Source of the DNA: Peptoniphilus vaginalis
GTDB taxonomy: Bacteria; Bacillota; Clostridia; Tissierellales; Peptoniphilaceae
NCBI RefSeq assembly: GCF_900176605.1
Contig: NZ_FXLP01000005.1
Coordinates: forward strand, 372,001 to 436,000
Length of the DNA: 64,000 nt
Reading direction: 5' to 3'
The notes beneath the pieces were generated by a model, which was given only the letters and a program-made list of their open reading frames with translations, had not been told where the DNA came from and made no database searches. Positions 55,925 to 64,000 of the stretch are shown here, one piece after another; position 1 is the first letter of the stretch, and the number at the start of each line of letters is the position of its first letter. The translations under genes and the position numbers were made by a program.

Positions 55925-56905
55925 TTGAAATTACTTTATTTAACAGATACTCACATAAGAGGTACTAATCCGAAGAATAGATTAGATGATTATTGTGAAA
56001 CTTTAAAAGAAAAATTAAAAGAAATTTCAAATATTATTAAGGAAGAGAAAGTTGATTATGTTTTGCATGGAGGAGACTTATTTGACAGGCCCGATGTGTC
56101 TGTTAGTATAGTCTCCGAATTTGCACAAATTTTTCAATCTTTTGGTGTGCCTATATATATAATAAGCGGAAATCATGATATATTTGGTCACAATCCAGAT
56201 ACCTTAGATAGAACTATGCTTGGTCTTTTATGTAATCTTGGAATTATGCATCTTGTGAACTATAAAAAAATTATTTTAGAAAAAGATAATTTAAGAGTTC
56301 AGTTAACAGGATCTCCTTATATTTATTCCATGGATGAGCTTTCCAATAGAGATAACTATAAAGTTACTGAAGTTGATGAATCCTGTAAATATGCAATACA
56401 TATGACTCATGGATTTTTAATCGACAAGCCCTTTATGAAAGAAGTCAGCCATACTTTAATAGAAGATATTAAAGATACAAAAGCAGACATCACTCTAGGG
56501 GGACATTATCATTTTGGATTTAAAACTGTAGAAATCGATAATAAGTTTTTCGTAAATCCTGGTGCCTTGATAAGAATTTCAAATTCGAAAATTGAGATGA
56601 AAAGAAGGCCTAAAGTTGATATCATCAACTTAGGAGAAGAAATTAAGATAGAAGAGAGATATCTTAAGTCTGCTAAACCTGGTGAAGAAGTTCTTGATAG
56701 GTCCGAAATGGAAAGACATCAATTTAAGGGAATTAAGATGGCAGAATTTAAAGAGAGTATAGAAGCTTCTGCAAACTATAAGAGCCTCGATATTTTTGAT
56801 TTGCTCCTAAGAATTTCTAAAAGTGAAAATATTAGTGAGGAAGTTAAAAGTGAAGCTCTAAAGAGAGTAGAAGAAGCTCAAATTAATGAGGTTAACTACT
56901 CATGA
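55925..56905 (+). CDS. Mre11/SbcD-like metallophosphoesterase
   Basis: 326-residue calcineurin-like phosphoesterase of the Mre11/SbcD type. Metal-site motifs: LTDTHIRG (D8, H10), LHGGDLFDRPD near 49-56, ISGNHDIFGH near 81-88, MTHGF and GGHYHFG near 192-198. TTG start 11 bases after recA with AAGGCGTGA upstream. It overlaps the next gene (ATPase N-lobe) by 4 bases, the conserved nuclease-ATPase pairing. Inferred: exo/endonuclease on DNA ends driven by the split Rad50-like ATPase. Shorter than classical SbcD (about 380-400), with a reduced C-terminal capping region. Confidence 0.87.
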   Translation: MKLLYLTDTHIRGTNPKNRLDDYCETLKEKLKEISNIIKEEKVDYVLHGGDLFDRPDVSVSIVSEFAQIFQSFGVPIYIISGNHDIFGHNPDTLDRTMLGLLCNLGIMHLVNYKKIILEKDNLRVQLTGSPYIYSMDELSNRDNYKVTEVDESCKYAIHMTHGFLIDKPFMKEVSHTLIEDIKDTKADITLGGHYHFGFKTVEIDNKFFVNPGALIRISNSKIEMKRRPKVDIINLGEEIKIEERYLKSAKPGEEVLDRSEMERHQFKGIKMAEFKESIEASANYKSLDIFDLLLRISKSENISEEVKSEALKRVEEAQINEVNYS

Positions 56906-58353
56906 TATATATAAAAAATGTTGAACTTAGAAATTTCCAATCTCACAATCATACAGAAATAGAATTTGACCGAGGTCTTAATGTTATCCTCGGTAATTCT
57001 GATGCTGGTAAAACTGCAATTCTAAGGGCTATAAAGTGGGCTCTTTTCAATGAACCAAAAGGTGATTATTTTATTAGACAAGGGGAGAAGGATGTATCAG
57101 TTAAAGTTACCTTCTCCAATGGGGTTGTGGTTGAGAGATCAAGAACTCCATCTAAAAATTCCTATTATCTTATGGATGCTGAAGGTCAAGAAATGCGTTT
57201 CGAAGGTTTTGGGTTAGATGTCCCAAAAGAAATAACTGATGCTATCCATATGTATAAAGTTTCATTAGATAATTCTAATAACAAAGTTATTCTAAATATT
57301 GCAGAACAACTAGATGGACCTTTTTTACTTAATGATCAAGCCTCTATGAGGGCCTCTGCTATTGGCAGACTTATTGGAGTTAATTATGTAGACGATGCTC
57401 TTAGGACCGTTGTAAGAGATAATAAAAGAATTAATCAAGAAATTGATAATCTTAGAGCAAGTAGAGATGATTTTAAAGAACAATTAAAAGAATTTGACTA
57501 TATCAAAGACTATAAAGATAAATTTCAAAAACTTTCTCATATTAGAGATAAAATAAGTGATTTAAACCAAAGATTAAATTTAGTATCTAATCTAAAAGAT
57601 ACTTATGAGCAATATAATTTGGAAATAGATAATATTGGCATTTTATTGGAAAATTTTAAGAATTTAAGTGCGATAGATTCTGTTATTCCTAAAATTGAAA
57701 CTAATCTAATTAAAAGAAGCACTTACCAATCTTTTTTTGATAGACTAAATCAGACTGAATCTGAAGTTACTATCATTTCTAATAGTTTAGAAAAATTAAA
57801 TAATATTGAATCTCTGAATTACAAAACTAAAGACATCGAAATCAAAAAAAATAAGTTAAATTCTTTTTCCGAACTCTTCCATAAATATAAAAATACCTCC
57901 AATCAAATTCTCAATACAAAAAAAGATTTAGATTCTTTAAAAAATAGTGATAAGATTGCAGAAATTAATAAGACTTTAGATGAAAAGATAAGTCTATATA
58001 ATAAAATTTTTTCAGGAAGAGAAAGTCTTCTAGTGATTAATGACAAATTAAATTATGGTAATGATTATATAAAGAACTTTTCTAATAATGATAATATTGA
58101 AAATATTTCCAAACAATTGGAGAAATATATAAAAAATTTATTTATTTTATCAGATATTCAAAGAAAATTAGATGAACTACAAAATGAATATATGCGAGAG
58201 ACTAATAAACTTACTGAAGTTAATAATAATTTAAAAAATTATACAGAAACATACGAGAAAACCATTTTAGAAATTGGGGTTTGTCCCTTCTGTTATAGCG
58301 AAATAAATAAGGAGTCCATTGAGCATATAAAATACCATTTGAGGAATGATTAA
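56902..58353 (+). CDS. Rad50/SbcC-like ATPase, N-lobe with first coiled coil and zinc hook
   Basis: 483 residues containing only half of an SbcC/Rad50 protein. The N-lobe shows LRNFQSHNHTEIEF and Walker A GNSDAGKTAILRAIKW (residues 31-46). From about 165 to 455 the sequence is heptad-rich coiled coil. Near the C-terminus lies CPFC (C461, C464), the CxxC of a zinc hook. There is no signature or Walker B: these are in the separate gene at 58592. The stop is immediately followed by the ATG of the 77-residue gene. The frame is intact, so this looks like a stable split, not a decayed gene. Confidence 0.85.
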   Translation: MIYIKNVELRNFQSHNHTEIEFDRGLNVILGNSDAGKTAILRAIKWALFNEPKGDYFIRQGEKDVSVKVTFSNGVVVERSRTPSKNSYYLMDAEGQEMRFEGFGLDVPKEITDAIHMYKVSLDNSNNKVILNIAEQLDGPFLLNDQASMRASAIGRLIGVNYVDDALRTVVRDNKRINQEIDNLRASRDDFKEQLKEFDYIKDYKDKFQKLSHIRDKISDLNQRLNLVSNLKDTYEQYNLEIDNIGILLENFKNLSAIDSVIPKIETNLIKRSTYQSFFDRLNQTESEVTIISNSLEKLNNIESLNYKTKDIEIKKNKLNSFSELFHKYKNTSNQILNTKKDLDSLKNSDKIAEINKTLDEKISLYNKIFSGRESLLVINDKLNYGNDYIKNFSNNDNIENISKQLEKYIKNLFILSDIQRKLDELQNEYMRETNKLTEVNNNLKNYTETYEKTILEIGVCPFCYSEINKESIEHIKYHLRND

Positions 58354-58587
58354 ATGAATTACGAAGAAAATTTAAAAAATTTAAAAGAACAATTAGATAG
58401 ATTAAAAAATATGAAGTACAAATCTGAAGCAAGGCTTGAGCAACTTAATGCCCAAAAGAAGGATATCTTAAATGAAATTGAAAAGCTAGGTATTAAACCA
58501 GAAGATCTTGAAAATGAAATATCAAATTTAAAAAGTGAAATTGATAGGCTTTTTGCTGAAGCCAATGACTTAATGCCAAGGTTGTGA
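58354..58587 (+). CDS. Small coiled-coil protein between the Rad50-like halves
   Basis: 77 residues, almost entirely charged heptad-type helix (LKEQLDRLKNMKYKSEARLE, EKLGIKPEDLENEISNLKSE). It begins at the base after the previous stop and ends 4 bases before the C-lobe gene. I recognise no family. It may supply part of the returning coiled coil of the split Rad50-like protein or bridge the two chains; this is inference from position and composition. Confidence 0.65.
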   Translation: MNYEENLKNLKEQLDRLKNMKYKSEARLEQLNAQKKDILNEIEKLGIKPEDLENEISNLKSEIDRLFAEANDLMPRL

Positions 58588-58591
58588 TTAC

Positions 58592-59242
58592 TTGGACCTT
58601 AAAGAATTAGATCAAAACTTAAATAAATTAAATAATAAGATTTTAAGCGATGAAGGTAAAATTGAAATTTTAAATGACCAGTTGGAAAAAGTAGAGAAAA
58701 AACTTGAAGAAAAAGAAAAATATAGCGAAGTTCTCACTCAAGTCTCACTACTTTTTCAAAAGACTTCTGAATTCGCTAGGGAACAATCGAAGAGACAGAT
58801 TGAAGATACTGTAACTAAATGTCTTCAATTTATTTTTGAAACAGACATAGAGTTTCTAATAGAATTATCAGAAGCAAGATCAGTTCCTATTGCAGACTTT
58901 TTTGTTCAATCTAACTATACTGAAGGCTACAGCATAAAGACAAAGCCTGAGATAGCAAGAGGTGGGGGAGTTGTTGATATAATTTCTCTTGCCCTTAGGA
59001 TTGCTTTCTTGCAACAAAACCAACCAATATTATCTGGTCCTTTGATATTGGATGAACCTGGAAAGCATGTGAGTAATGATTATATTTTTAATCTTGGGGA
59101 GTTTTTAAAGCAATCATCAAATATTTTCAACAGACAAATAATAATGGTAACCCACAATCCACATTTATCACAAATTTCTGATAGGGCTTTTCAGGTCAGA
59201 AATAAGAAGGGAATTAGTGAAGTAAGCCTATATGAAGAGTAA
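58592..59242 (+). CDS. Rad50/SbcC-like ATPase, second coiled coil and C-lobe
   Basis: 216 residues: coiled coil (about 1-75), then the C-terminal ATPase lobe with ARGGGVVDIISLALRIAF, the ABC-type signature region (near 121-138), Walker B LILDEPGKHVS (near 150-160) and the H-loop MVTHNP. Together with the protein encoded at 56902 this makes a complete Rad50-type ATPase head. TTG start with AAGG upstream. No terminator seen after it; a new promoter begins at 59250. Confidence 0.85.
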   Translation: MDLKELDQNLNKLNNKILSDEGKIEILNDQLEKVEKKLEEKEKYSEVLTQVSLLFQKTSEFAREQSKRQIEDTVTKCLQFIFETDIEFLIELSEARSVPIADFFVQSNYTEGYSIKTKPEIARGGGVVDIISLALRIAFLQQNQPILSGPLILDEPGKHVSNDYIFNLGEFLKQSSNIFNRQIIMVTHNPHLSQISDRAFQVRNKKGISEVSLYEE

Positions 59243-61789: not shown

Positions 61790-62395
61790 TATTTTCTCTT
61801 AATCAATTAAAGGAGAAATTATATAGTTCTGATGACCTTTCTTAACTTCTCAAATTATATGAGCGTAAGCTTCCTCTGTGTCTGTTGTTACTTCTGTTTT
61901 TGCTATCTGTCTTCCTTTAGGCAACTCTAATATATAATAAATTTCGATATTCTTACAATGACTTATTAGGTCTAAGGATTTAGGTATAGGAGTAGCCGAC
62001 ATTGATATACTATGAATATTCTTATACGTATTAGACAAGCTCTATCTTTATCTTACGCCAATCCTATCTATTGTCTGCCATTATAAACATTAATAGAAAG
62101 GCTGCTTATAGTCTTCCCACAGCCAACATCACCTTGAATTAATCCTTGAATTTTTTCTCCCTCTTGCATTTTAAACAAAATATTTGTTACAATATTTTAT
62201 TGATCACAGGTTACAGGTTAAAAAAAAGTCATAATTTTAAATTTTTTAAGTAAAAGTTAATCCCATTCTTTAAAATTTTCTGATGGCAATATTTTCATCA
62301 AAACCTTTAGATACTGATGATTTTATATTATAAACTTTGGTAAAATCATAATATTCTTTAGGAAGAAATTCTAATATATCTTCCATAGATAACTA
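61790..62395 (-). pseudogene. recG: recG remnant, internally deleted and frameshifted
   Basis: Reading the minus strand from 62395 downward, pieces of RecG appear in the right order but in different frames. First comes the wedge-domain start (DILEFLPKEYYDFT, about 62390-62350), then helicase motif I (IQGDVGCGKT, about 62135-62105), a broken motif II region (IDRIGVR), motif III with SMSATPIPKSLDL (about 62005-61970) plus LPKGRQIAKTEV, and EVKKGHQNYIISPLID past a stop at about 61850. Only about 600 of the usual 2000 bases remain, with large deletions and several stops. A functional recG is presumably elsewhere. Confidence 0.85.
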
Positions 62396-62527: not shown

Positions 62528-63710
62528 ATGGATTATGATATTTGGGATTCTTTTATGATTAGAACACCAACTATTCCTTTTTGTTATTTAGAAGAATATA
62601 GAAATTCAAATAAAGATATTTATGAATTTATTTCAGAAAATGAATTTTTAGATAATTTTCTTAAAATGCTCTTTTAATATCTTCTAAATCACTTTATTAT
62701 TCATATATAAATAAGCCTGAAAAAGGAAAAAAATATAGAAATCTATGTCAAGGTTTATTAAAGTATTTTATAAGAGCAAGTTCTAGACCAACCCCCTATT
62801 GGAGTTTTGCAAACGTATCGATTGAAGAAATCTGGTAAAAATACAAAAATTGAAAAAGAATATGAAATAATAGATATTAAAGTAGATACAGATTGGGCTA
62901 ATGGTTTAATAAAAAAATTAGAGGATGACTCAACAATATTTAAAAAATTATATTTAAATTTTAATGATATTTGCTATGTTAGCGGAGATAGACTGAAAAA
63001 TCCTTATTTTTCAAATAGAGGAAATTTAACAAATAGTTCTGAGGAGATTAAAGAAAATAGTATTAGATTTACAATTCTTGGAAAGTTAGTAAAAAGCAAC
63101 TCCAAAAAATTTATTTAATATAATGATTTATTTTATATCATAAAAAATGAATATGAAGATGTTGATGATTTACTTCTTCAAAATATAATTAAAAATTTAA
63201 TGGAAAATGAATATTTGTTTACTAATTTAAGACTTCCAGCTTATTGCACTGATATATTAACTTATTTAATAAAGATCTTAGAAAATATCATAAATTAACC
63301 CTGAAATTAATAATTATGGATTTTTAAGCAACTTTAAAAATAAGTTTATAGAAAAATACGGAAGTAATATAGAAGTTGATTAAATTGAGATAATTGAGAT
63401 ATTTGACGAAAATAAATTTAATGGGTTTATCTATTTAAATGATTCTTATAATCCAAGTGATATGGAAATAGAGATTAGTAAAATAATTACAGATAAAATT
63501 GAAAAGGCTATATTTAATGGTGAAGAAGTATATCTTACAAAAAATGATTTTAAAAATATTGATAATAGTAATCTAAATCTTACAAAAGGATTTGACTTAA
63601 ATTTATACATAACTAAATCAAAAGGAGCCTACGATTTAATAGTTGGTCCCAATGGAGGAGCTCCAAAAGAAGGCTCAATGTTTCAGCGATTTAGCGATTC
63701 TTTTGTAAAA
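62528..63710 (+). pseudogene. Lanthipeptide dehydratase (LanB-type) N-terminal remnant
   Basis: LanB glutamylation-domain segments follow one another across broken frames. From ATG 62528 (RBS AGAAGGGG): DYDIWDSFMIRTPTIPF. After a shift near 62666: FIRASSRPTPYWSFANVSI. After a shift near 62833: GDRLKNPYFSNRGN and SIRFTILGKL. After an in-frame TAA at 63116: NEYLFTNLRLPAY. After a shift near 63298: GFLSNFKNKFIEKYGSNIEV. After a TAA at 63381: KGFDLNLYI, LIVGPNGGAPKEGSMFQRFS. The order matches intact LanB, but the remaining two thirds of the protein are missing. Nonfunctional as dehydratase. Confidence 0.85.
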
Positions 63711-63968
63711 GAAGACTTTGTTCTAGATTTAAATATAGTAAAAAACGAAACAAATAATTCAGGCATTCCTAGTATAGCAATTACATGTATACCTTGTATA
63801 TTATCTCAGTGGAAATGTCCTTCTCTAAAAAATCCAAATTGTTCAGAAGGACGTCCTCAACCTCCAGATTCAACCTTATGCCCAACTATATCTCCAACTG
63901 ATATGGGTATGTGTGATAATTTAAAAGCAAATAACAATGCAACTGGAAATATCGAACCATTAAGATGA
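63462..63968 (+). CDS. Chimeric ORF: LanB fragment fused to lanthipeptide precursor-like peptide
   Basis: A 168-residue open frame. Residues 1 to about 82 are the last surviving LanB piece. From about residue 83 it changes to KEDFVLDLNIVKNETNNSG, matching the F-x-L-D box of class I lanthipeptide leaders (63717-63731). Next come IPSIAITCIPC and a tail of about 60 residues rich in Cys (six in all), Ser, Thr and Pro. An internal ATG at 63678 with AAGAAGG upstream could start a 96-residue precursor alone. Inferred: a deletion joined lanB to lanA in frame, or lanA once followed lanB. No modification, protease or transport gene is visible downstream. Function unknown; the leader match is by eye. 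Confidence 0.55.
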   Translation: MEIEISKIITDKIEKAIFNGEEVYLTKNDFKNIDNSNLNLTKGFDLNLYITKSKGAYDLIVGPNGGAPKEGSMFQRFSDSFVKEDFVLDLNIVKNETNNSGIPSIAITCIPCILSQWKCPSLKNPNCSEGRPQPPDSTLCPTISPTDMGMCDNLKANNNATGNIEPLR

Positions 63969-64000
63969 TAAACGATATAATAACAAAGTATGTAAAATAA

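Follow-up and report, generated by a model that had tools for sequence, protein, structure and literature searches.

Two described families come closest to the locus reported here: LanB (PF04738/PF14028), the class I lanthipeptide dehydratase, and the FDLD-type precursor peptides (NF038155; gallidermin/nisin TIGR03731). Within Peptoniphilus, lanC homologues have already been listed: P. lacrimalis 315-B appears among them in a survey of class I clusters from 2010 (PMC3091789), the accessible part of which gives no fusion. The same part describes one cluster with two LanCs and without a structural peptide, which may be that of P. lacrimalis 315-B. According to the accessible table rows of PMC3930743, position 2 of the precursor leader box is N or D, except in two mutacins (A and T). 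A lanB-lanA fusion of the kind described below was found in no title or abstract; subscription papers lay outside this coverage.

The window, a stretch of 64,000 nucleotides (G000:C1:372001-436000) within the 1.88-Mb genome of Peptoniphilus vaginalis, carries an open frame that reads LanB-like sequence up to MFQRFSDSFVKEDF, then VLDLNIVKNETNNSGIPSIAITCIPC, then a tail rich in Cys, Ser, Thr and Pro (Table 1). A sequence-only reading had described this frame as LanB running into a lanthipeptide precursor-like peptide, and translation and the homology of both halves bear this out: FVLDL, IPSIAITCIPC and six cysteines are all present, uninterrupted by stops. We are highly confident that the locus is what remains of a class I lanthipeptide cluster and that the fusion is a deletion scar, a by-product of decay; we infer that, most likely, the fused frame goes untranslated or serves no function. 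Settling the odd fusion as decay keeps it from being annotated as a new kind of precursor. The fusion is known from the one available genome of the species.

Table 1. Features of the lanB-lanA locus, in window coordinates
Feature	Position	Strand	Evidence
lanB remnant (class I lanthipeptide dehydratase), N-terminal domain parts only, broken	62528..63719	+	tblastn, Pfam Lant_dehydr_N
TAA stop in lanB, then frame switch	62675..62677	+	
In-frame TAA stop in lanB	63116..63118	+	
In-frame TAA stop in lanB, just 5' of the fused frame	63381..63383	+	
Fused open frame, lanB piece plus lanA remnant, 168 aa	63462..63968	+	translation
lanA remnant without start codon or first residues, keeping the core and the leader from (K)DF on	63712..63968	+	P. 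genitalis locus, free homologues
Putative deletion joint AAGACTTT, common to P. genitalis lanA leader and LanB codons KEDF	63712..63719	+	
Leader box change, GTT (Val) vs GAT (Asp) in P. genitalis, both G008 copies and G001	63720..63722	+	
Core change, CGT (Arg) vs TGT (Cys) in P. genitalis; Cys in all seven other alignment rows	63852..63854	+	
TGA stop vs P. genitalis TGT (terminal Cys) before its stop	63966..63968	+	

The stop-free run at the fusion is 194 codons long. Across 40 mononucleotide shuffles of the window, read in all six frames, the longest stop-free run had a median of 131 and a maximum of 191 codons, and the openness of the fused frame taken alone is weak evidence. We take the frame to be more than chance because both of its halves are homologous to real genes.

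The LanB half was aligned by tblastn using three intact LanBs from the same order (G089, G636 and G639; residues in G089 numbering). Residues 4–260 and 351–483 aligned, at 35% and 42% identity; nothing aligned for residues ∼261–350 (∼90 residues) or for anything beyond 483. The frame switches between the three stops, and the earlier description of a badly broken lanB ahead of a stop-free peptide half stands. At the genome level, Pfam found three LanB pieces at the locus, two above the 28-bit cut-off (69.7 and 30.8 bits) and one below it (26.4), and no further Lant_dehydr_N match in the genome at E ≤ 0.01; residues 7–85 of the fused protein on its own matched at 18.4 bits, below the cut-off. 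The window gene resembles LanB in its identity to intact relatives and in two pieces over the PF04738 cut-off, but differs in keeping only parts of the N-terminal domain, interrupted by stops, with nothing C-terminal aligning.

LanB homology reaches slightly further into the frame than had been noted: to KEDF at 63719 (...VKEDF) when G089 is the query, whereas with G636 it stops at the F that precedes VKEDF. Beyond KEDF the G089 LanB reads KEDFKEYNKIYEK. The alignment with the G639 LanB crosses the joint, with 6 of the 14 residues after KEDF in agreement (...ETN.S); we take this agreement as chance, because in P. genitalis these letters belong to a lanA leader that has a start of its own. On these two grounds, the G089 continuation and the presumed chance nature of the G639 agreement, we rejected the peptide as the natural continuation of LanB.

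The closest named relative of the locus lies in the complete genome of Peptoniphilus genitalis SAHP1 (NZ_CP097885.1), flanked by the same neighbours. There, the first 23 lanB codons and a stop are followed by ATGTCAAAATTTAAAGACTTTGATCTAGATTTAAATATAG: MSKFKDFDLDLNIVKK, an FDLD leader with its own ATG (ATG-TCA-AAA...). Beyond the leader this lanA copy carries a frameshift and is missing the front of the core, but over its last ∼150 bases it is almost identical to the window, apart from two one-base gaps. P. genitalis lost its lanB through a deletion with different breakpoints.

Across the joint the window reads GTAAAAGAAGACTTTGTTCTAGATTTAAATATAG. The LanB codons AAA-GAA-GAC-TTT (KEDF) cover AAGACTTT, and AAGACTTT plus the next base, G, is identical letter for letter to the P. 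genitalis leader. The joint is consistent with a deletion between short repeats. That a deletion joined lanB and lanA, one of two possibilities raised from the sequence alone, is well supported because the sister species P. genitalis has a separate lanA leader, relatives have a free lanA after lanB, and the joint has short shared sequence. The order in G636 and G639 is lanB - lanA - CPBP(s) - FMN reductase - lanC - lanT, and in G089 the same but without CPBP between lanA and the reductase; the ancestral order would have been that of G636 and G639, CPBP being a membrane protein. (Pfam was run on lanC, the reductase and one CPBP of G008, the G639 CPBP and the G089 reductase; other cluster labels are by resemblance, with LanB confirmed separately.) With roughly AAGACTTT present twice, at the KEDF codons of lanB and at the KDF codons of the lanA leader, a deletion between the two copies would have removed the 3' half of lanB together with the first lanA codons, leaving the joint in frame. 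Some points run against the relic interpretation: the joint is in frame, which chance gives one time in three, no stop interrupts the peptide half, a Shine-Dalgarno-like AGAAGG precedes ATG 63678, and the G639 LanB alignment crosses the joint.

We give very little credence to the joint being an artefact of assembly or sequencing. Several frame breaks do fall within a short stretch of an AT-rich genome, but missing blocks combined with several stops are atypical of read errors, and the assembly is 99.5% complete in 5 contigs, with the joint deep inside one of 863 kb. Moreover, the same kind of cluster has decayed in the complete P. genitalis genome and in G001, G004 and G008.

The peptide half has recognizable kin. 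Its leader box FVLDL (63717–63731), of the FxLD type, corresponds to FDLDL, FELDL, FDLEL and FDLDI in relatives, and its core is rich in Ser, Thr and Cys. Another member of the genus, G008, has two free precursors that share 31 and 33% identity with the window peptide and have ribosome binding sites 5' of their ATGs (AAAGGAGG and AAAGGAG). A profile built from the window peptide and these two precursors, whose matches in G000 and G008 are consequently circular, found free precursors in G639 (E 1.8e-6), G636 (3.9e-6) and G089 (two, 1.7e-5 and 7.5e-4). Six of 249 genomes matched at E ≤ 0.001, including the profile sources G000 and G008 and the sister genome G003. A third precursor-like frame in G089 (L037 5913–6089) was spotted by eye. 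Free precursors lie directly 3' of an intact lanB in G636, G639 and G089, where the sequence-only reading had advised looking for one, and directly 3' of a broken lanB in G008.

Other searches returned little. A 398-genome sample of the phylum, at E ≤ 0.001, gave a match to the peptide in the window's own genome alone. In two homologue searches, matches beyond G000 and G003 (E 0.026 to 0.96) and beyond G000, G008 and G003 (E 0.002 to 0.09) were treated as chance. Among plasmids, the window peptide gave one match (E 0.7, at cobS/cobT), held to be chance, and one of the G008 precursors gave none; searches of phages and viral contigs gave nothing. At E values up to 10, the window peptide matched no family in NCBIfam or Pfam. 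Five relatives were compared with NCBIfam: those in G639 and G089 scored 17.4 and 18.3 bits with NF038155, the model of FDLD class I precursors (cut-off 20), and the G636 relative and two G008 relatives had no NF038155 match. The earlier statement that the core matches no known lanthipeptide holds for curated models, but the order does contain free homologues. The window peptide is like FDLD-type precursors in its F-x-L-D box, its Ser/Thr/Cys-rich core and its position adjoining lanB, and unlike them in its FVLD, its missing start and its lack of a match to NF038155 or TIGR03731 at E 10. We judge it a genuine, though decayed, member of the FDLD-leader precursor group, which in this order stands beside intact lanB and falls under the thresholds of the models tested.

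Its own start was lost at the joint. Translation of the precursor alone from ATG 63678 had been suggested, and both that ATG and the AGAAGG just 5' of it exist; however, the ATG encodes an internal LanB Met (MFQRF), likewise MFQRF in the intact LanBs of G089, G639 and G636, and is not the start of the precursor itself. Further changes have struck the leader box and two conserved Cys codons (Table 1). The terminal Cys ends the precursors of P. genitalis, G008, G636 and G639; the three in G089 end in Pro. We rejected selection on the fused frame because these changes hit the leader box and two Cys positions, one conserved and one terminal, and because the P. genitalis counterpart is frameshifted. 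The other possibility raised from the sequence alone, an unusual precursor under selection, is not supported: the peptide lacks its start, one residue of the leader box and two Cys codons conserved in relatives, no intact LanB and no class I LanC turned up in the genome, and no intact transporter was seen at the locus.

The remainder of the cluster is also degraded. Directly 3' of the fusion, outside the window, is an open CPBP gene (263 aa; Rce1-like by Pfam), then a lanT-like transporter gene with an internal deletion, missing ∼1 kb that the P. genitalis copy has. The longest piece of the transporter had no Pfam match; the frame in P. genitalis, an ABC transporter by Pfam, is itself interrupted by a stop. 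A transposase-like gene follows (HTH_38 over cut-off, rve below), which we take to be IS30. Neither lanC nor an FMN reductase was present among the frames read beside the locus, and no intact lanB and lanC, as a functional class I cluster would have, were found at the locus or in the genome. We considered rescue by another class I LanC and rejected it: the LanC-like stretches at C1:70934 and C1:71462 both belong to a single 852-aa class III lanthipeptide synthetase (G000:C1:69212-71770; L070 2213–4771) with RamC_N, kinase and LanC-like domains.

It is very unlikely that the frame encodes a working precursor, whether with a LanB-derived N-terminal extension or as a 96-aa peptide from ATG 63678, modified by other enzymes of the cell. 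The open frame, the AGAAGG and a Ser/Thr/Pro-rich core with six Cys would suit such a peptide. Opposed to this are a genome with no match to an intact LanB or class I LanC, the altered leader box and two altered conserved Cys, the status of ATG 63678 as an internal Met common to intact LanBs, and a P. genitalis counterpart that is frameshifted and without the front of its core; the class III enzyme elsewhere, moreover, has its own class III precursor nearby.

That class III cluster, outside the window in the same genome, looks intact. A 40-aa precursor 3' of the synthetase (L070 4982–5104) scored 31.6 bits with NF038159 (cut-off 30).

Rates of change were compared with P. genitalis. For rqcH and two other flanking genes, presumably an xerC-like gene and one for a stalk-domain protein, dS was 0.58, 0.59 and 0.62 and dN/dS 0.077, 0.045 and 0.10, respectively. 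The CPBP gene gave a dS of 0.066 and a dN/dS of 0.57, from 33 changes (9.5 synonymous, 23.5 non-synonymous). Because the transporter fragment gave an ill-defined alignment, we make no use of its dN/dS. DNA identity in 200-base steps was 93.5–99.5% from the lanA remnant through CPBP, 83–97% on the rqcH side and 83.5–98.5% on the far side, ranges that overlap and a measure poorer than dS here. Because CPBP dS is far below that of the flanking genes, the comparison suggests that the lanA-CPBP tract (∼63712–64000, on to L002 5361) is younger than the species split, through exchange or separate uptake. It also suggests that this tract is under weak constraint.

These values bear on the possibility that biosynthesis is dead and the neighbouring CPBP has been kept as putative immunity, the locus serving a resistant non-producer. 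CPBP is open here and in P. genitalis, with lanB, lanA and the transporter broken at both loci, and CPBP-like frames are open in G008 (one of them Pfam-tested) and in G004 (by resemblance to G008). Yet the CPBP dN/dS of 0.57, against 0.05–0.10 in the three flanking genes, is relaxed, if on few changes, and we consider retention for immunity possible but rather unlikely. It is compatible with the relic interpretation, concerning the neighbouring CPBP and not the fusion. A broader proposal, which we think doubtful, would have Peptoniphilus lineages turning repeatedly from lanthipeptide producer to resistant non-producer as lanB dies and CPBP is kept, with the lanA-CPBP tract moved recently between species and the relic locus spreading as an immunity element.

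Decayed lanB is seen in other genomes of the genus too. Lant_dehydr_N matched in 4 of 14 genus genomes (G000, G001, G004 and G008), every copy broken or truncated, which makes the genus a small natural series on the decay of bacteriocin clusters; P. genitalis, whose stub is too short for this, gave no match.

A second, different leader fusion was noted in G001 (L034 1–354, minus strand), directly 3' of a lanB that is broken close to its beginning. Here a lanA leader that has a start of its own, preceded by AGGAGG (MNKYEDFDLDMKVTGEK), continues in frame into a membrane protein at the contig edge. This fusion protein has matches in 17 of 249 genomes (G001 included), and no FDLD leader was found at the start of matches L072, L073 and L077; L074, L076 and L078 could not be usefully aligned.

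Related class I clusters carry a gene of the NADPH-dependent FMN reductase family (L036 2594–3133, L037 6812–7576, L063 6471–7232 and L064 9398–10120), confirmed as PF03358 in G008 and G089 and assigned by resemblance in the other two. LanJB enzymes of the FMN-reductase family make D-amino acids in class II lanthipeptides; according to the accessible part of the same source, FMN-reductase-type LanJB is found in class I clusters, with D-amino acids so far seen only in class II (PMC7268733).

In G089 an rqcH-like (NFACT) gene, labelled by its resemblance to the window gene, is separated from the lan cluster by a few genes (L065 14793–16586), as in the window; this is possibly coincidence. Between rqcH and lanB in the window are short fragments on the minus strand (61850–62200), which we presume to be pieces of a RecG-type helicase; the one tested, 61853–62038, had no Pfam match. 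An ATPase gene at 56902–59242 (plus strand), which we take to be SbcC/Rad50-like, is split into three open frames of 483, 77 and 216 aa, with AAA_23 in the first. The split looks inherited rather than a recent error, because the P. genitalis gene is split at the same places.
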